From: Muricea muricata
Taxonomy: Eukaryota > Cnidaria > Anthozoa > Malacalcyonacea > Plexauridae
Length of the DNA stretch: 64,000 nt
Reading direction: 5' to 3'
Assembly (NCBI GenBank): GCA_963855995.1
Contig: OY979718.1
Span: forward strand, 47,217,559-47,281,558
Under the pieces are notes generated by a model, which saw only the letters and a program-made list of their open reading frames with translations, was not told the origin of the DNA and made no database searches. The stretch's first letter is position 1; every line of letters begins with the position of its first letter. Below are positions 28,947 through 40,776 of this stretch, one piece after another. The position numbers and the translations under genes were made by a program.

Positions 28947-29588
28947 GACTTGGTTTAAAAGTATTAACGAGTAATATACTCATGCTATTAACAATATTTT
29001 TGTTTCCTTTGGGTAACGTAGTGGTCTTTTAATGCGCTTAGAAGCTGCATGTTAGCAAAGAATATCTCATCCCAGCTCCAAACGCCACAATTTACATGCT
29101 CCGAATTAAATAAAACAATTATATTGATGTCATGTATTCCATGCGACTAGTCAAATCTGAAACTCTACCTCAATCTAAACGCCGTGATATTTTACATGAG
29201 TGTGTCTCTCCTACTCGTCTCCCACGTAAATCGGCGTAATCGTCCGAACTTTTTAGGCCAATTCGCATCAATTTTTTCAAGATTCTATATGTAGCATCTA
29301 ATTAATTTATATTTACCACTTGCATATGCGTGAAAAGGGACGTTTTGCCAGATGCTACTTTGACACGTTCATGTTCTTAATGGACAGAGGACGTGCGCAA
29401 CCCAATATTAACAGTTTTTTATTAAATGGTTTCTAAAATAATTGTCTTCAGCGGCATAAAATAATTAGGTGAGAAATAATTAGGTGATTTTTAAGGAACT
29501 GCCCGCAGAGGTAAAAGCATAAAAGACGGCTATTTGGCCCAATTTTGGGACATAGCAAGAATCGCGCTCCATTGTGTAACTGTTCGAC
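28947..29588. other. Upstream flank of the GPCR gene
   Basis: AT-rich, no feature identified apart from AATAATTAGGTGA repeated twice at 29460-29490. Confidence 0.4.
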
Positions 29589-30503
29589 ATGAATTACAAC
29601 GATTCCCTCACAAGAAACTGCCCTGATAAAATTTGGAATGAACGATTCATAATTCTTTACACAATGGATATGCCAAACCGATTTTTTCTAATTACTGTCA
29701 ATGCTGTGCTCATATTTTCGACGATATTCCTCAACTTGATTTCCGTGATAACAATAAGAAAGTCGTCACAACTGAAGAACAAAATCTGCTACTTTGTTAT
29801 CCTAATTCAGTCGACGATCGATTGTGTGGCTGGTATTTCAAGTATACCACTTTTCATTATAACTCTAACTATGCCGTCCTTTGGATTAAGAAACTGCCTT
29901 GCCTTTCGATCGATGTTTGTATCCATGCTTGTAGTTCCTTCGTTGGCACCGGTGTCATTGTCTGCATTGACCGCGGAAAGGTACATTGGTGTACTACACC
30001 CATATTCCTATAAGACACTGGTGACAAAAAGAAGAATTTTAATCAGTGTTGCAGTCGTTGGTTTCCTATGCGCAGCTCATGCAATTTTCATGTTTGACGG
30101 TCCAAGAATAAGCACGATTATCATAATGCTCAGTTTTTTCCTTTTCATTGGATATGCTTATACCAGGATCTATCTTGTGGTGAGAAAGTTAGATCGGCCC
30201 GAGAATAAACCTGCTGGCTGTGTATCACAAGATCATCACAGCAGACGAAGACGTCTTTTGCGCGAAATAAAGCTTGCAAAATGCTGCTTTATTGTCGTTA
30301 TTTTGTATGGCGTCTTTATGTTACCTTCTTCTCTGAGCACTCTTTTTGTCAGATTAGGAGTAAGTCGCGGAGTCTACAACTGTTGGTTATTTACCCTGTA
30401 TATTATAAATTCAAGTATTAATTCAGTGACATTCTTCTGGACAAAGGCACTACTACGAGCTGAAGCCTGGAAAATCGTCAAGTCCATTTTTTCGCGAGAT
30501 TAA
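29589..30503 (+). CDS. Rhodopsin-class (class A) G-protein-coupled receptor
   Basis: Intronless, 304 codons. Seven hydrophobic segments can be picked out. TM1 begins near residue 33 (FFLITVNAVLIFSTIFLNLI, with the conserved Asn), TM2 near 66, and TM3 ends in ALTAERYIGVLHPYSY, an ERY form of the DRY motif. TM6 lies near 235-255 (CCFIVVILYGVFMLPSSL). TM7 ends NSSINSVTFFW in place of NPxxY. The second extracellular loop is unusually short. The N-terminal NDS is a possible glycosylation site. A basic third intracellular loop (SRRRRLLREIKLAK) is present. It resembles orphan receptors that are expanded in cnidarians; no ligand can be assigned. Confidence 0.88.
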   Translation: MNYNDSLTRNCPDKIWNERFIILYTMDMPNRFFLITVNAVLIFSTIFLNLISVITIRKSSQLKNKICYFVILIQSTIDCVAGISSIPLFIITLTMPSFGLRNCLAFRSMFVSMLVVPSLAPVSLSALTAERYIGVLHPYSYKTLVTKRRILISVAVVGFLCAAHAIFMFDGPRISTIIIMLSFFLFIGYAYTRIYLVVRKLDRPENKPAGCVSQDHHSRRRRLLREIKLAKCCFIVVILYGVFMLPSSLSTLFVRLGVSRGVYNCWLFTLYIINSSINSVTFFWTKALLRAEAWKIVKSIFSRD

Positions 30504-30819
30504 ACTTATTTACCGGATCAAAACAATAGGAAGGAAGTAAATGAAACAGATATAGAACAATAGGTTTAAAAAGAAGCTTTCTCTGAGCCTCGTTGTAATA
30601 TTGATTTCTACCATATACAATATTATATAGAGTAGAGTTAATAGGCTTTAAATTTTATTTTAAATAAAACGACGTTTAGGCGTTTACTCCATCTTCAGGT
30701 TTTTAGATTACAGTAATTCCTTCAGGGGGGTTCTACAAAACTTGGGGGTCAGCACCCCTTGCACTTATTAAACCTGTTAATTTTGCAATCATGGTATTTT
30801 TATATTTATTTGAGTATCA

Positions 30820-30889
30820 TGCAGGTTTGTAGATTACAGTAAATTTTAAATAATTAAATTATTCAAAATTTACTGTAATCTAAAAACCT
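30820..30889. repeat. Palindrome at the Kolobok insertion edge
   Basis: The sequence around TTACAGTAAATTTT at 30836 is inverted at about 30862-30885, giving a stem of roughly 20 bases that ends at the TTAA target. It may be a decayed MITE into which the larger transposon inserted. Confidence 0.5.
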
Positions 30890-31101
30890 TAAAGCTGGGT
30901 TAAAGTCGCATCTGCGCATGTGCGAGTTTTTTGTTTATGTGAGTCTCACGGAAGCGGAAGTGAAGATAGCGCAACTGCAAATCATCATCTTTTCTTCCGG
31001 TCTTGAGTCAGTCTGTCAACCGAGCGTAATAAACGCGAATCGAGTTACAAAGTGGACAGCTTGTGTTTGGGAGGCTTTTTATTACTATCTGACTTGAAAG
31101 C

Positions 31102-32959
31102 ATGGCAGAAGCGTTGGACGAAGCTTTAAATAGTACGCTTGAAGATCTAGAAATCGATCAAATGGAACAGCTTGCGTCGGATTCTTATTTTGACAACAAT
31201 ACAACTTGTTCTTGTCGTGGAAATTGTCTTCGTGAACGAGGGAGAAATTTTTGCCCGTGCCGGAGTCTAAGCAATTATTGTTCGAGTGTGTGCCACAATG
31301 GGAACTCTGACATGTGTTTAAATAATCGAAGAGTCCAAGAAAGCGATAGTGACGATTCATCAGTAAGTGTGTTCGTATATTAATGTATAATTCTACTCAA
31401 CATATTCACGCTTTTTCATGAAGTTAGCTCGTAGACAACTGAACCAACCACACAAAGGCATTGAATTTCTCACGTCTCCGTTTACAAACAACTGTAAAAC
31501 ATGGAAAAAATTTCAGTCGTTCTTTCGACGTTTATTTGACTTGAATACACTGCAATCGATCTGTTGAGATTTGCATAAAATTCGTATAATATTAGCATAT
31601 GGGTGATATTACATGAATACTGCATGAATATTCATTGTAAATCTACTACGGTATTAGGATATATGGCATAGATATGTGTATTAGGATATATGGCATATAT
31701 TATGGTTTTTATATATTATATTATGGTTCAAAGTGTCGCATTGCCAAGAAATGTCACAGGATTATTTTAGAACATAAAAATCCCACATCATACAGTATAT
31801 TCAAGACATAACTACCAGAATTTTTTTGATACAATGTGTATTGCCAACAGTGTGGTTCAACGTTTTTGTGTGATCTATAAAGTTAATGCATTTTTTCACT
31901 TCTCAGGATGATGAGTTCTTGCATGAGTCTGGACAAGATGAATCTGATGGGCCATATGAGGAGACAACTGTGGTCCAAGAAAGAGGACATACAAGAGGAC
32001 AACGAAGGGCTAGAGGTAGTGGTGAAGAAAGAGGGCATGAAAGTGATGAAGCAACAGAAGGTGGGAGTGGGCGTGGAAGAGGACGTGGGAGAGGACGTGG
32101 GAGAGGGCGTGGGAGAGGGCGTGGAAGAGGACGTGGAAGAGCAAGAAGCAGTAGTCGAGGAAAAGGGCATGGAAGTGATGAAGAAACAGAAGTTGGGGGA
32201 AGTGGAAGAGGTCGTGGAAGAGGTCGCGGAAGAGGTCGCGGAAGAGGTCACGGAAGAGGTAGCGGAAGAGGTGGCAGAAGAGGAGGATTACAAGCAGCAG
32301 AAGGTGCTGCACAAAATCAAGCAAACCATGAAAACCAAATAGTGGTATGCATAAATATATATATACTAGATTTTTATGTTACACTTACAGCCAATCTTAA
32401 ATGCTCTTTAGACATACTGATTACAGCATGTGTGTACATTTTTGTGTTTTAGGACTTGGTGAATGGTCTGGAAATAGATGCCCTCAGAAGGCTTGCAGTG
32501 GAACTTTTGAGGAGGCAACCTGCAGCATTTGCTGATATTGTTCAGGGGGAAATAATGGCAGGTGATGGGCAACCTCCTGACCCACCATTACCAAATGATG
32601 TTCCAGATTGGTGTAAGTGTGGGCATTGTATAGTAATGCCAACACAAGCAGAAAACAAGTGTTGTACAACAGCGGTGCGTCCTTGCATAACAACAAATGC
32701 TTTGTTTTTACAAATTATCTTGGACGCAAATGTCCTTGATATTGCTATGAGGTTTCGAGAAGATATGTTGGCATTGAATAATGTGAGAAACAATGAAAAC
32801 TTCAGGCATGCTGCATACCGACAATATATTTTGTGGCAATATGGGCACTTAGGAAAAGGCAACCGAAGGGTTGTTCCAAGTTGCTGTGTTAGAGAAATAC
32901 GTGCTCGTTACCCTTCTCCAAATGGAATTTATACAGGATATAGACCTGCAAGGCTTTAG
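31102..32959 (+). CDS. Transposon second gene: Cys-rich / Gly-Arg / P2X7 ballast-domain protein
   Basis: Three exons with clean GT-AG borders and phase-0 junctions: 31102-31362, 31907-32344 and 32453-32959, giving 401 codons. Residues 1-87 are acidic, then a Cys cluster (CSCRGNC, FCPCRSLSNYCSSVC) resembling CXC-type zinc motifs. Exon 2 is acidic, then a long (GR)n run, as in RNA-binding RGG proteins. Exon 3 matches the P2X7 receptor cytoplasmic ballast domain: DWCKCGHCIVMPT, CC, FRHAAYRQYILWQYGHLG, VVPSCCVREIRARYPSP and YTGYRP, with the zinc-binding Cys residues kept. There is no transmembrane segment, so it is not a receptor. Its role in the element is unknown; nucleic-acid binding next to the transposase is a reasonable guess. 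Confidence 0.85.
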
Positions 32960-33890
32960 GACAATTTTACATTAATTAATGCTGCAGAAATTTTGTTTTG
33001 TAATTTGTATACATTTTAGGTAAAAATATTTTACATTTTGACAATTTCTAGGTGGTTCTACCATATGTAATAAGTTATTGAGCTTGCATGTTTTTATGAC
33101 AACAGTATTAAACATGATAAGTCTTTGCTATTGTGCTTATAGGACTTGCACAATTTGCATTTTATTCAAAATTATGAAACTTAACCAGAAGTAGTTTTAA
33201 CATTTTGGTTTGAAGGGTTAAACATAGTTAAAAATATGCACACTCACATAACGTATTGCTAATGTATTAACGTTGACATTGACAATAGTCAAATGTGCAA
33301 TATGAGCGCCCAACGAATGATGAGTAAAATATAGTTTTAAATAAGATCAACACAGCAGCTTTGGAAGATTACAACTATAGCATTAGAGTGTATCTTTTAC
33401 ATTTGCATGTAAAACTGTGATTATTTCATCATTCTTTTGTCGCGCATATTGCACATTTGACAATTGCCAACCTTCAATACAGTTGGGTGGTTAATCAATT
33501 ATGTATTTTTTTGTAATATGGCTAGAATAAGGCTGTTTCGCTCAATGTCAGAGCTCATCAGCATGTCTAGGATAGCAGTCTTTACCCTTATTTCTCATCC
33601 ATATCTGAGATGAAGAAAAACTGTTTATGTTTTAAACTGTGTCATTGCTGAGCAGTTTAGGAAACTTTCTAAGAACTTTTTTCTGAAACATTTAGGACAT
33701 ATGATTTTAATTAATAGTTTTCAATGACATTTTTGAGAAATATAGTTGATAAAGAATAATCCGACATGGACAGCCTGGTCCTTTACAGGACCCGGGGGTT
33801 TGAAATCAGAGTTTTCCTTCTCCTAGATGGACTGCCTTCCATGGCTAATGAGCTCCATCTACCCAAAGTAATTTAAAATACATGTTCGAC
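32960..33890. other. Spacer between the two convergent transposon genes
   Basis: AT-rich, no open frame. It should hold both 3' UTRs. ATATTGCACATTTGACAATT at about 33449 is the imperfect complement of sequence near 33282-33305 (TTGACAATAGTCAAATGTGC), giving a possible stem. Confidence 0.5.
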
Positions 33891-36080
33891 AAGTTAAACA
33901 AATCTTGATGTGTGAGAGTCAACAAGCACTTGCACTGAAGGTGGAGGGACTGCTGAAATATTTGGAGCTATTTGCCTGGGATCATCACTCGACATACCAA
34001 CTCTGGCACTCACAGGTGTATTTGATCTTCCTTTCTGCATGAAAACCATTTTCATAAGTGCTGGTATGTAAGCATAATTTTTAGGTTCCAAAACCTTGAC
34101 TGGATACCAACGTTTTGTCCTCTTACTAAATTGCCGCTCAAATCTTAAAATATTAAGCAAATTTACGTGAGCTAACAGTACTTTTATTGAATTTTACATT
34201 AATACAGTCTATGGTAACATATGTCACTGTAATTGGTAATGCTGTAATTATTATATAATATGATAAAAAGTAAACAGTTAAATAATACACTACCTTGGGT
34301 GACCATCTGCTGTAAGAGCTGCTTTCCTTCCTCGATGATAATTAAAGTCAATCGCAGCAAGTTGGTTTCGCATTGTATAGGCTAGGAACCTGCAGATATG
34401 TAAAGGACAATGGCTTAGCTTCTTACTATTAGTAATTACTAATACTATTTACTAGTATTTTCTACTACTAAGCCTTTCAGTTTACTTCTACTAGTACCTT
34501 ACAACTTACGTGTAAGAGTGCCGCTTTGAGGCATACATCAAAATATGGTTATGAAAAGATTCCAGAAAACCAGTATGCCTAAAAAGTAAAAAAAAAACAA
34601 GGTTGTATTATTCACATGCATTACATACACGTTTGGTTTACTTTTACAAAATCAAACATTACACTGCATCCAAGAACTATATGCAAATGCATTTCAAAGC
34701 TGTGTTTCGTACAATTTTGAAACGAGTGTTATGAAATTTCATGTACATTATGTCAATACAGACAATACAATTGTGGATGATCGCAGCCCAAAACATAACT
34801 CCACCACTTCCTGATACACTGTGGACATAATGCTTTTTCATCACACCATCCTCTTGACCAGCCATGAGGTCCATCGAGAGTTGCTCGGCACTTATCCGTA
34901 AATAAGAACCTCAATTTCCACTCGTGCACATACAATAGTGTTTCCATAATATATCCAAAATTTCATAAACTTCGTTGAAAAAATGAATTCAATCCAACAA
35001 AAAAACTGATTTGCATATTCTTGGATGCAGTGTATAGCATTTTTTTTACAAAATTTAAGAATTGCAAAAATCATAATAAACAAAATGTACCTGAAATTAA
35101 CATAATATGGAATTGTGTTTAAGAATCTTTTATCCATCACAATTTTGGTCAACGCTTTATGTGCTGGTGACTCCTTCTTTAGCCAGGGCTTGTTGCGTTC
35201 ATCATCACCCAGGGGCTCGTGTGGACATTCACCACCATTTACACCCTCTTCCAACACCCATTCGTGTTCGTTTACCACATGGTGAAGTAAACCAATCCAC
35301 ATATCCTAAAAGTTCAAAGATATAATTATGATAGCCTACCGGTAGTTTACAGTCTGTCTGATTTAGTAACAGATTTATTTCGGCAACCTTACAAAAACAG
35401 ATGTAGCCCTGTTTATTGAACTATGGAAAAGTATAAAATCTGAATTGCCTGTGAAGATAAGAAAAGTAAATATAGGTAATTTAAATTGTATTTTTACCTT
35501 AAATTGTTTAGCATCAGCATTACAATTTTTTGAACAGTACCAGAAGTGATTTCTCACTGATGGTGCCCAGAACACGAGATCATCATTGGATTTGGACTTT
35601 GCAGCCTACAGCAGATACAAAATTAGGTGCAGAACAGATACAAAATTAGGTGCAGAAAATGAGAACATAAATTGTATGGCATTCCTTTCATTTGAAAATC
35701 TCACTACAATCTATAAATTATGCAAACATACTGCATTAATTTTCTTGGCTAGATTCTTTCCCCCATGCCAAACATCATGCTGGTGTGTTATGTCCTTGAA
35801 TTTGTCAGCCTGTTCTACAATCAATATGAAATAAATTTTACAAATGATGAAATAAAGCCTGCAAGTTCCACAAATGGCTTCCCTATAAAGTCGAGTGATA
35901 GTGCAACATGTAGCATTGAAAATTTCATGACTTACAGCTATAACTCTCAAATAATATAAGCCATATAATTTCCAACATGCAAGATCATGTAAATTCTGAC
36001 TTGTATCAATAGCACTTGACTTCAAAGGGTAGCTTTTTTGGGGAAAGGCTTTACTGTACTACAAGAAAACAACATGTGAA

Positions 36081-36854
36081 CTAACTCATTAATGCCCCAA
36101 TTTCAAGATGGCCATCTGTCACAACTTCCTTTATCTCCATTGTCGATGTAAGCAACTTGTCCATGCCCTTTTCAAAACCAATCCTTTCCATGTTGTTGCT
36201 CTTTCCAGCTGCCTGTCTTACATCAACAATGGTCATTTCGAGGATTGCTTTGTCCTTCATATCTGCCAAACTATAGGTGCAGTACTGCGCGGAGTGACCA
36301 GGTGAGTCATTTCTGCCATCTCCACTCAGTATGATGTCTTTACCCGATCTTTCATCACATAGCTTCTTCTTTTGCTGCTCCCAGAAATCCTTAACTGCAG
36401 GAGCAATGAACAAATTCTGATACTGGTAAAACAGTGTATGACTGAAATACTGTATGTTACAGAATTTGAACATCATTCCTATTTTCTGGTATGAATTCCC
36501 TGAGAACAGCAAAGAAGAAGCCAAGATAAGATTACCAGCTCTGACCCCTTCACATGTTGGTTGAGCTGCCCATCTCCCTCCAGCATGACCAGCATTGCAC
36601 CCCCAAGACACCACAAGACAAGTACCCACATATTTTTTTTTGTACTCAAGGGCACGGTCACATCCTTGTCTTTTACACGCAGTCCCATACATGGATGTTA
36701 TTAATGACATCAGCACATCAGTGAAGACAATGCATTTTTCACTTTTAATAGCATCATCTGATGTCATATACTGTACTGGTGTTTCTACGGATTCCTGGAT
36801 AGTCTCCCCATCATCGTCATGGCCACCAACAACAAAATTATATTCTTCATTCAT
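36081..36854 (-). CDS. Kolobok-type transposase core exon (DDE region)
   Basis: Largest exon, about 255 codons, bounded by an acceptor (TTGTTGGCAG) and a donor near GA|GTTAGT at the low end. It contains a Cys/His zinc site (ACKRQGC, WGCNAGHAGGRW) and the first catalytic Asp region (LSGDGRNDSPGHSAQY). The next Asp region reads EVVTDGHLEIGAL, followed in the next exon by HDVWHGGKN. This is the pattern of TTAA-specific Kolobok-like transposases seen in cnidarian, echinoderm and fish genomes. The remaining acidic residue of the triad lies in a later exon and was not pinned down. Confidence 0.85.
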   Translation of the reverse strand: MNEEYNFVVGGHDDDGETIQESVETPVQYMTSDDAIKSEKCIVFTDVLMSLITSMYGTACKRQGCDRALEYKKKYVGTCLVVSWGCNAGHAGGRWAAQPTCEGVRAGNLILASSLLFSGNSYQKIGMMFKFCNIQYFSHTLFYQYQNLFIAPAVKDFWEQQKKKLCDERSGKDIILSGDGRNDSPGHSAQYCTYSLADMKDKAILEMTIVDVRQAAGKSNNMERIGFEKGMDKLLTSTMEIKEVVTDGHLEIGALMS

Positions 36855-38414
36855 GCTGCCAACAAAAATATATGACTGTTAGCACTATAGTATATTTCAA
36901 TAACACTCTTTACCATATAATACATACATACATCTAAGGTTTTTATACGCAATTGAATGTCATTTCTAAGTTAACATTATCTTACAACAAGACCCCAAAG
37001 AATTGATCGGGTATGCTGAGATATATACTATCAGTCTATCATCTACAGTAGTGGTATATTTACTGAGACTTTATAACAGCAAGTACCGAGGAAGTTTTAA
37101 AATTAATTATACTTTATGCAAATTGCCTAACATTTTTTTACCAGAAAAATAACTTACACGGTAGTTTCATCAATGGGAACATTAGTTGGACTAGGCTGTG
37201 GGATAATTGTAACATCATCATCATCTGATTCACTCTGAGAATCTTGTTCACTCGCGGTCAACGTTGTGAAGGACTCTTCGAACGGATCGCGAGCTCGAGC
37301 CGATCTAAAGTAAATATATTTATACATGAAAGAGACACTAAAGAAATTTATTCGTACGCAAATTTTCAAGCAGCAAGCAGTTTATGCAAATTATTAGAGC
37401 AGTATATTGACAACAGGATACAAACCTGCGGGATATCGTAGACAATGGCGAACTTTTGTCAGCAGGAATCAATGCCCTTCTGCTAGATGGGGTATGTTTT
37501 GGAGTTGACGCTTGCGTAAACTCTAAAATACAAATCGAACAAACTGTAACTCAAATAAAAGATATAGAAGATCACAATTTATTTTATCTGCTGTACCTGA
37601 CAGTCCTGACGAGGCCTCTTGGCTAATGGCTGTTGCCCAGTGACCACCAACGAATTACGGTCGTTTCGCTACATAGTCGTTTCGCTACAAGTCGTTTCGC
37701 TACACGCATAAAGTCGTTTCGCTACACGCATAAAGTCGTTTCGCTACACGCATGAAGTCGTTTCGCTACACGCGCAAAGCTATGAATGTGTATTGTGTAA
37801 TGCTATATATAAGTGTCAACTTGCTGTAGGGTGTTTAAAAAGTCTATCTTGGGCTAGAAAAGTCTACAGGGTGCCCTCCAAAAATGTCCCTCCATTAGAA
37901 ATGGCCCATGCAAATTCAACATGCTCCCGTTATGCTCCCACAAGTATTGCTCTATGAGTGGTGGACCATTCTTACTCGAACTGATGGTATCACGAATTTA
38001 TTATTTTTCACATAATAATGATAATAATTTATTAGTTTTTCCAAAAAAATTGGTTTTTAAAAAACTATTTACATTTAGAAACAACTGTAATAGTCAGGGC
38101 GCTGAACGGACAAAAGTACATGTTTACTTACCATATCGAGGGGCAATTTCGTTTTATGTTTATATTGTGCCTTTAAGCCTAATAAGTATATTTCTGTATG
38201 TTGGACGCGTTCAGATTTCTTGTGGGCTCCTGCCAACACGTATTGGTTTAAATTTTCCTATAAAACTATTATTGTCAAAAAAGGTGAAATTTCAGATTCA
38301 TTTTTAGCAAAAACCACTTGTGTCATTGGAAAGGTAATAAAAAACTACATTTTCGAGGTTTTTGTTGAGTTATGAGTGTTTGAAAACGTATTATCAGACT
38401 AGTGCCCAGGAAAT

Positions 38415-38972
38415 TTGCGCCATTTTAGGACTTTTTCCCATTTTGAAGGAGCAATAACTCATAAAAGAAGACACACTGGAGAGAAACCTTATGAATGTGA
38501 TGTTTGTAAGAGAACATTTACAGACGCAAGCACCTTGGTTAAGCATAAAAGAAGACACACGGGAGAGAAACCTTTTGAATGTGATGTTTGTGAGAAAAGA
38601 TTTACACAAGCAAGCACCTTGGTAAGACATAAAAGAAGACACACTGGAGAGAAACCTTATGAATGTGATGTTTGTAAGAGAACATTTACAGACGCAAGCG
38701 CCTTGGTTAAGCATAAAAGAAGACACACGGGAGAGAAACCTTATGAATGTGATGTTTGTAAGAAAAGATTTACATGTGCAGACACATTGGTACAACATAA
38801 AAGAGGACATACTGGAGAGAAACCTTATGAATGTGATGTTTGTAAGAAAAGATTTACACATGCAGGCACATTGGTACAACATAAAAGAAGACATGCTGGA
38901 GAGAAACCTTATGAATGTGATGTTTGTAACTTTACAGACAGACTCCGTGTTTTCCACTTTATGCTCCCATAA
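38415..38972 (+). CDS. C2H2 zinc-finger array inside a mobile element
   Basis: Five complete and one broken C2H2 fingers in near-identical 84-base units, linked by HTGEKPYECDVC. Helix residues vary: FTDASTLVKH, FTQASTLVRH, FTDASALVKH, FTCADTLVQH, FTHAGTLVQH. The array runs straight into the palindromic tandem repeat, which supplies the last 15 or so codons and the stop, so the natural C-terminus is lost or never existed. The start Met is inferred; an upstream exon is possible because ATTTTAG precedes the frame. It could be a captured host fragment or a DNA-binding protein of the element. Confidence 0.6.
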   Translation: MRHFRTFSHFEGAITHKRRHTGEKPYECDVCKRTFTDASTLVKHKRRHTGEKPFECDVCEKRFTQASTLVRHKRRHTGEKPYECDVCKRTFTDASALVKHKRRHTGEKPYECDVCKKRFTCADTLVQHKRGHTGEKPYECDVCKKRFTHAGTLVQHKRRHAGEKPYECDVCNFTDRLRVFHFMLP

Positions 38973-39262
38973 AGTGGAAAAGACGGAGTCTGTTTAAAAG
39001 TCACCGCCAAGTCTAGGGAAACACTTTACAGGCAGACTCCGTGTTTTCCACTTTATGCCCCCATAAAGTGGAAAAGACGGAGTCTGTTTAAAAGTCACCG
39101 CCAAGTCTAGGGAAATACTTTACAGGCAGACTCCGTGTTTTCCACTTTATGCCCCCATAAAGTGGAAAAGACGGAGTCTGTTTAAAAATCACCGCCAAGT
39201 CTAGAAACACACTTTACAGAGAGACTCCGTACTCCGTACTCCGCACTCCGTACTCCGTCTTT
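38935..39262. repeat. 94-bp tandem repeat of palindromes
   Basis: GACTCCGT recurs at 38941, 39035, 39129 and 39223, a constant 94-base period. Each of the first three units holds a hairpin with an arm of about 25 bases (CAGACTCCGTGTTTTCCACT to AGTGGAAAAGACGGAGTCTG; one-base difference), then AAGTCACCGCCAAGTCTAG. The fourth unit breaks down into short CTCCGTACTC repeats. Confidence 0.9.
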
Positions 39263-40776
39263 TCCACCATGCCATTTTCGGCTGGTTGCTGACGGTTGCA
39301 AACGTTCACGCCCCCTAATTAGAAGTTTGAAATATAAAACGTAAAGTTGTATAATGATAACACGCGTTGGAAAACTCGAAACAACTTTCATTTCGCGGCG
39401 CGGTGTAACGATTGAATGCAAATGGTAGTAGGGCAAACAACATGCAGTCACGCAAGGTGGGGATTGCTGCGGCTTGCGGGTATTAAAAGCCAACAAGTGT
39501 AGAATATAAGGCACATGACAACATGATCCGCAAAATTGCATATAATGTCCTTTGAATGTTGCTGTTTCCTTTGGCACAAGTGACCAATCATAAAGAGGCA
39601 GGAAGTAATCACTCATTTCTAATTTAAATTACTCATGTATTCATCAACTATTGCAAATGAAATTGGGTTCCCGCATGTGAGGATCGTGATCAATTGAATT
39701 AATACAATATTTTAGGTTTGTAACTTTTAATATTTTAGGTTCATGCTTGTAGCGAACTGACTCAAAAGTTGTAGCGAAACGACTTCATGCGTGTAGCGAA
39801 ACGACTTTAGATTGTAGCGAAATGACCTTAGATTGTAGCGAAACGACCTGTAGCGAAACGACTTTGTAGCGAAACGACCGGATACCCCACCAACTGGTGT
39901 TGAAGAAGAAATAGCTAATAAAACGATGAAAAATGTTTCAAATACATAAAATTCATGCAGTAGAAGTATAAAATATCTAGTTACTAAGCTTGCTAATACA
40001 ATAGATGAAATAATACCTGGCGAATTGAAAGGAGCAATGTCGTCGCTGTGTATACTTTGTTCACCAGATAATGACTCCATTGTATTCACTGTCTGAGTCT
40101 CTACCTCTCTAAAAGCAGCGCAAAATCATTTGGAATCAAATAAAACGTCGAATTATCCGATATATAGTTTAGATCCGATAATAATAGGCTTACCGCGTGT
40201 CACTTTTCTTGGCATAACTCTCCAGGAGAAATGATGCCATTTCTCCGTCTGATTTAAAATTGTTGTCGCTCTTGAAGGCTCTCCATTGAGCAAAAGCGCC
40301 AAGTAGATACACCTTGGTCGCATCCCTTTTCTTAGTTTGCGCTTTTCTCGAATCGCTGGCATCAGTCGAAGCAGTAGAAGATTCAGCCATCACTAGTACA
40401 GACTAGCAGGTATTTGGTCTCGTGGTTGCTTGACTGAGTGAGTGACTGACTCAAGACCGGAAGAGAAGATGATGATTTGCAGTTGCGCTATCTTCACTTC
40501 CGCTTCCGTGAGACTCACATAAACAAAAAACTCGCACATGCGCAGATGCGACTTTAACCCAGCTTTAAAATTATGACTATATATACAGTAAACTCCGAAA
40601 CGTCGTTATAAAATTATACCCAAAAGGAAGAATGCAAAACGGGACAGGAAAGCCCATGCGAGGCACCCCCCTTAAAACTCCAAAATTAATTATATTAGAA
40701 TATTAAAGTAAGCTCAATTTGCGTTAACATTCAAAGGATGTTTAAAAACAAATTAGAGGTAATTTAGAGAAGGTAA

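Follow-up and report, generated by a model that had tools for sequence, protein, structure and literature searches.

Background

The DNA transposons of the Kolobok superfamily have been described as carrying 5'-RR..YY-3' termini, and in one of their lineages, Kol0, the second protein, KolX, has the fold of the cytoplasmic ballast domain of P2X7 together with seven cysteines (Kojima & Bao 2022, PMC9587614, here and below cited from its main text). Kol0 elements are known from vertebrates, annelids, cnidarians and sponges, and the same authors concluded that the P2X7 receptor arose when a P2X4-like gene fused with KolX (PMC9587614). Zebrafish Nanor, which aligns with KolX over its whole length, is likely a domesticated KolX (PMC9587614); unlike the transposon-borne KolX it is a host gene, and it is likened to KolX here by its published description. 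KolobokP elements also belong to this superfamily and have two genes, and their termini bear long direct repeats (about 450 or 660 bp) (PMC9587614). Rump et al. (PMC7016195) have reported ballast proteins across animals as well as an ancestral synteny of ballast genes, and have named five residues of P2X7 involved with GDP; their article makes no mention of transposons.

In this paper, we describe a KolX-bearing Kolobok element in a 64,000-nt stretch of the genome of the octocoral Muricea muricata (hereafter the window), which an earlier note on this DNA had singled out as a TTAA transposon with a P2X7 ballast protein as its second gene. As the link between KolX and P2X7 was published in 2022, no new question is opened here; the element type and this link are already known, and what is new is an octocoral member of the KolX-bearing Kolobok elements.

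Results

Structure of the element

Positions 30893-40564 of the window form a transposon flanked by TTAA at both sides. The inverted ends, which had been put at about 120 bp, measure 130 nt each when the TTAA is included, and inside the TTAA the termini read AG..CT, i.e. the RR..YY form. The features of the element are as follows (borders of all transposase exons are predicted).

30889..31018, plus strand: left inverted end, TTAA target site at 30889-30892, 127/130 nt identical to the other end
31102..31362, plus strand: KolX exon 1, cysteine-rich motif CxCx3Cx8CPCx6Cx3C..CxN with eight cysteines
31907..32344, plus strand: KolX exon 2, RG-repeat linker
32453..32959, plus strand: KolX exon 3, P2X7 ballast domain
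33894..37522, minus strand: Kolobok-type transposase, nine exons, 610 codons open
37522-37426, 37304-37158, 36855-36086, minus strand: transposase exons
35814-35732, 35605-35498, 35305-35091, minus strand: transposase exons
34578-34510, 34389-34294, 34143-33894, minus strand: transposase exons
40390-40194, 40108-40017, minus strand: 5' transposase exons, stop-free in copies L009, L010 and L011
37652..39886, no strand assigned: nested element of 2,235 bp, with an 8-bp target duplication at 37644-37651 and 39887-39894
40439..40568, minus strand: right inverted end, TTAA target site at 40565-40568

The sequence just left of the transposon contains a rhodopsin-family receptor frame (29580-30503; 7tm_1, E 9.7e-11). 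A 33-nt inverted repeat (30823-30889, 94% complementary) that resembles a small hairpin element adjoins the left TTAA, and a stretch of 21-23 nt at 30694-30716 is related to it.

The KolX gene and its ballast domain

The second gene lies on the plus strand, convergent to the transposase, and its three exons are open over 401 codons. Its splice sites are good by eye (TCA|GTAAGT..TTCTCAG and GTG|GTATGC..TTTTAG); the combination adopted has the best sites by eye and accords with the 401 codons given in the earlier note, and the exon borders are only predicted because many further splice combinations stay open. The last exon matches the Pfam family P2RX7_C (PF20478) with E 6.3e-36 and rat P2X7 with E 2.3e-23, which bears out its earlier reading as a P2X7 ballast domain. 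An AlphaFold2 model of exon 3, built from 45 rows, reached a pLDDT of 85, and all of the 14 PDB chains that it matched at E<=0.001 were P2X7, with moderate query TM-scores of 0.56-0.59. A chance match of the ballast motif is ruled out by the Pfam, rat P2X7 and predicted-fold matches. The zinc cysteines of rat P2X7, which we take to be residues 477, 479, 482, 498, 499, 506 and 572, all align with cysteines of KolX (C287, C289, C292, C303, C304, C311 and C377). Of the GDP residues named for rat P2X7, five in all, three (R546, H547 and R578) are kept in the alignment, as is Y550; R574 and K583 are replaced by V and S, respectively. KolX is thus like the P2X7 ballast in its fold and zinc cysteines, and differs from the receptor in these two replacements and in the P2X channel domain, which is absent from the 401-aa protein, P2RX7_C being the sole Pfam domain found in it.

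The N-terminal motif of exon 1 recurs with the same spacing in 8 of 24 relatives: octocorals contribute three of these and acorn worms four, and P0015 is the eighth. It carries nine cysteines in the acorn-worm relatives and in P0015. The other 16 relatives, seven mollusc and crinoid proteins among them, lack the motif; some of the 16 are single-exon predictions, in which the first exon may have been missed. The pattern recalls, to our eye, CXC zinc clusters, which bind DNA. When four N-terminal pieces were compared with Pfam, three had no match and one had an irrelevant match below threshold; a PDB profile search of the N-terminus returned six caspase-2 entries only (E 0.4 or worse), and the AlphaFold2 model of the motif was unusable (pLDDT 48). 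We therefore rejected the assignment of a CXC DNA-binding domain, for which there is a resemblance only, with no usable match in Pfam or PDB and the motif in 8 of 24 relatives.

The transposase and the nested element

The Kolobok-like transposase that had been noticed opposite and convergent to the ballast gene was recovered as minus-strand exons running from 40390 to 33894; for the last two of them one alternative splice choice is also open. On reading, the frame contains DGRNDSPG, TDGH, DVWH and FLESF in this order, i.e. a DDD/E arrangement with the C/DxxH motif between the second D and the E, the catalytic residues being putative. The only Pfam lead was Mutator-like and under the cut-off (23.6 vs 26.5 bits), and there was no Pfam lead to piggyBac. 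A total of 135 proteins match the transposase at E<=0.001, and among the 120 of them listed, the best named relatives come from the octocorals Paramuricea and Dendronephthya, the others being from molluscs, echinoderms, acorn worms, lancelets and fish. The octocoral relatives P0020, P0021 and P0023 are 65, 62 and 68% identical over 56-69% of the query, and the nearest named relatives overall are from octocorals, with 62-70% protein identity, in keeping with an octocoral host. Furthermore, Paramuricea clavata fragments of KolX (P0019) and of a transposase (P0020) are each located on a 17,921-base contig; they probably share the same contig, in which case the linkage of KolX and transposase would recur in a second species.

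The nested element is flanked by the 8-bp target duplication GTTGGTGG, and its site is empty in the copies L009, L010 and L011. Since it is inserted in an apparent 5' transposase exon, the transposase of the window copy is probably broken, and this copy, judged from its sequence, is probably no longer autonomous. The ends of the nested element are made of tandem units of 21-22 bp (AAGTCGTTTCGCTACACGCAT), and it contains a C2H2 zinc-finger frame (38403-38972) and three hairpin repeats of 94 bp (38929-39230).

Copies of the family in the genome

We searched the genome (453 Mb, 74 contigs) with the first 208 bases of the element and found 14 matches. Seven of these are left ends and six are partner ends; the last is a 35-base fragment on contig C9. 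A partner end was found for five of the six left-end loci other than the window, with one pair 36 kb apart, and these six other copies were examined as seven stretches. TTAA is present at both ends, with differing flanks, in the window copy, L009, L010 and L015; the exact end motif with TTAA was found at the left end only in L011 and at the right end only in L014, and was unmatched in L012 and L013. L013 and L014 are one copy whose ends, about 36 kb apart, have presumably been stretched by further insertions.

The earlier note had proposed that copies with these termini be collected and inspected for the ballast gene. Ballast sequence was found at all seven loci that share the left end, and in six of the seven it lies between paired ends, the right end of L012 being the one that was not found; a ballast gene outside the element ends was seen at none of the seven. 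Of the two outcomes that, by the earlier note, would have spoken against its reading, neither occurred in this family. The ballast exon is whole and stop-free in the window copy, L010, L011 and L015; L009 misses about 33 residues in frame, L012 has one stop, and in L013 the ballast is broken into two parts, both containing a stop, with the first 35 residues missing. In L010 the stop test, which covered 14 exons but neither the start nor the splice junctions nor the exon that the nested element interrupts in the window, found no stop.

Contig C1, which makes up 27% of the assembly, holds six of the seven family copies, as well as 39 of the 50 best ballast loci; this excess may be genuine or may stem from the way in which candidates were picked.

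Pairing of ballast and transposase across the genome

The ballast exon has at least 170 matches in the genome (150 listed), and the largest transposase exon has at least 148 (148 of 746 first candidates scored). After merging, 87 of 148 ballast loci have a transposase match no more than 10 kb away, whatever its orientation, and at 84 of the 87 the two are convergent like those of the window; shuffled placement on the same contigs averaged 2.1 and never exceeded 6 in 200 trials, versus the 87 observed. The convergent pairs span ballasts that are from 77% down to 40% identical to that of the window. The remaining 61 of the 148 loci have no transposase match within 10 kb, and a more distant transposase query (P0133) found a match within 15 kb at one of these 61. 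On closer reading, convergent transposase exons missing from the list of the single-exon search were present at two unpaired loci, L059 and L061, so the 84 convergent pairs are probably a lower bound; at a third, L060, the ballast and N-terminal exons occur with no transposase in the stretch examined, and solo or decayed copies therefore exist. The P0133 query also matched Kolobok-like transposases of a second group, whose open frames are long and reach about 700 codons.

Selection on the ballast exon

Exon 3 of the window was compared with that of 16 loci, and 10 of the 16 comparisons were saturated. Exon 3 of L010 is identical to that of the window, and L011 has three changes (dN/dS 0.14), whereas L015 has 13 replacement and 6 silent changes (dN/dS 0.61). 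For L050, L051 and L052, of which L050 and L052 are near copies of each other, dN/dS versus the window is 0.08, 0.07 and 0.08, at a dS of about 2. A further 12 loci, from which L052 was excluded, gave 66 pairs, and the 9 usable ones have a median dN/dS of 0.11 and a range of 0.04-0.20. As silent sites are near saturation, these values are rough. We read them as a sign that the ballast protein was maintained while the families diverged, selection between loci being purifying, at a dN/dS of about 0.1, wherever it is measurable.

Discussion

Identity of the element

We are highly confident that the window contains a Kolobok-superfamily DNA transposon with a transposase and KolX as its two genes; its lineage is most likely Kol0. 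Compared with Kol0 by the published description of that lineage, the element resembles Kol0 Kolobok of the Kolobok-1_XT type in its TTAA target, RR..YY ends, DDD/E transposase, and ballast-fold second protein with seven cysteines. It differs in its octocoral host, and the main text of PMC9587614, in which neither CXC nor N-terminal is mentioned, does not describe the cysteine-rich N-terminal motif of the window's KolX. In contrast to KolobokP, the element has inverted ends only, with no direct repeat joining both ends, and its second gene codes for a ballast protein instead of a His-Me nuclease.

That the element is a piggyBac transposon, a TTAA user of which a few families have a KolX-like protein, would agree with the target site; however, the AG..CT termini are of the Kolobok form (PMC9587614), the sole Pfam transposase lead is Mutator-like, and the KolX-like proteins of piggyBac lack most of the seven cysteines (PMC9587614), all of which are present here, so that we give this reading practically no credence. 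The ballast could also be a host gene acquired by chance as cargo of one transposon family only. Free-standing ballast proteins occur in many animals, transposons going unmentioned in that account (PMC7016195), and the 61 unpaired loci might be taken in the same sense; yet convergent pairs also occur at loci of widely divergent ballasts, none of the seven family loci is without its ballast, and KolX is an established gene of Kol0 (PMC9587614), which makes chance cargo very unlikely. The preferred reading, a Kolobok element with KolX as its own gene, agrees with both the pairing and the purifying selection, which together argue that the ballast gene is a putative working gene of the transposon.

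Possible role of KolX

By analogy with the superfamily, the DDD/E transposase would cut the element out at its inverted ends and paste it into TTAA. KolX combines the cysteine-rich N-terminal motif, the RG-rich linker and a zinc-binding ballast domain, and might bind the DNA of the element or the transposase. Its frequent partnership with the transposase and its maintenance by selection across diverging families suggest that KolX most likely helps transposition as an accessory factor. A more specific scheme, in which KolX is a two-part zinc protein whose ballast senses guanine nucleotides and thereby gates transposition, and whose cysteine-rich head, joined to it by the RG linker, may bind DNA, is speculative and in our view improbable. 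If it were true, the pocket for GDP in P2X7 would be left over from the control of transposons.

Relation to P2X7

The earlier note had suggested that the source of the P2X7 ballast travelled on DNA transposons. The presence of the ballast on such transposons is confirmed; a transposon source of P2X7 agrees with the published conclusion (PMC9587614), and our own tree is silent on the direction. In this midpoint-rooted tree, which sampled 35 of the well over 100 KolX ballasts found together with three mammalian P2X7 ballasts, the P2X7 rows form one branch of 2.43 changes per site, and with a single long P2X7 branch and a midpoint root only, the tree gives no direction. For the origin of P2X7 only, it could be that the ballast was a host gene first and that P2X7 captured this host gene, not a transposon gene. 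The ancestral synteny of ballast genes (PMC7016195) speaks for such a course, and the undirected tree leaves room for it; against it, Kojima & Bao concluded that KolX was the source (PMC9587614), and no ballast locus, among the 150 listed of at least 170 matches, is on contig C14, where all 17 of 17 matches to P2X exons are located. We regard host-gene capture as unlikely. The capture of a KolX-type gene by P2X7 is the published conclusion (PMC9587614), which our data fit but do not prove.

Copy by copy, one genome confirms the ballast domain as a gene that transposons have conserved. With L010 among its copies, this young family makes it possible to test both how the P2X7 tail originated and what role KolX plays.
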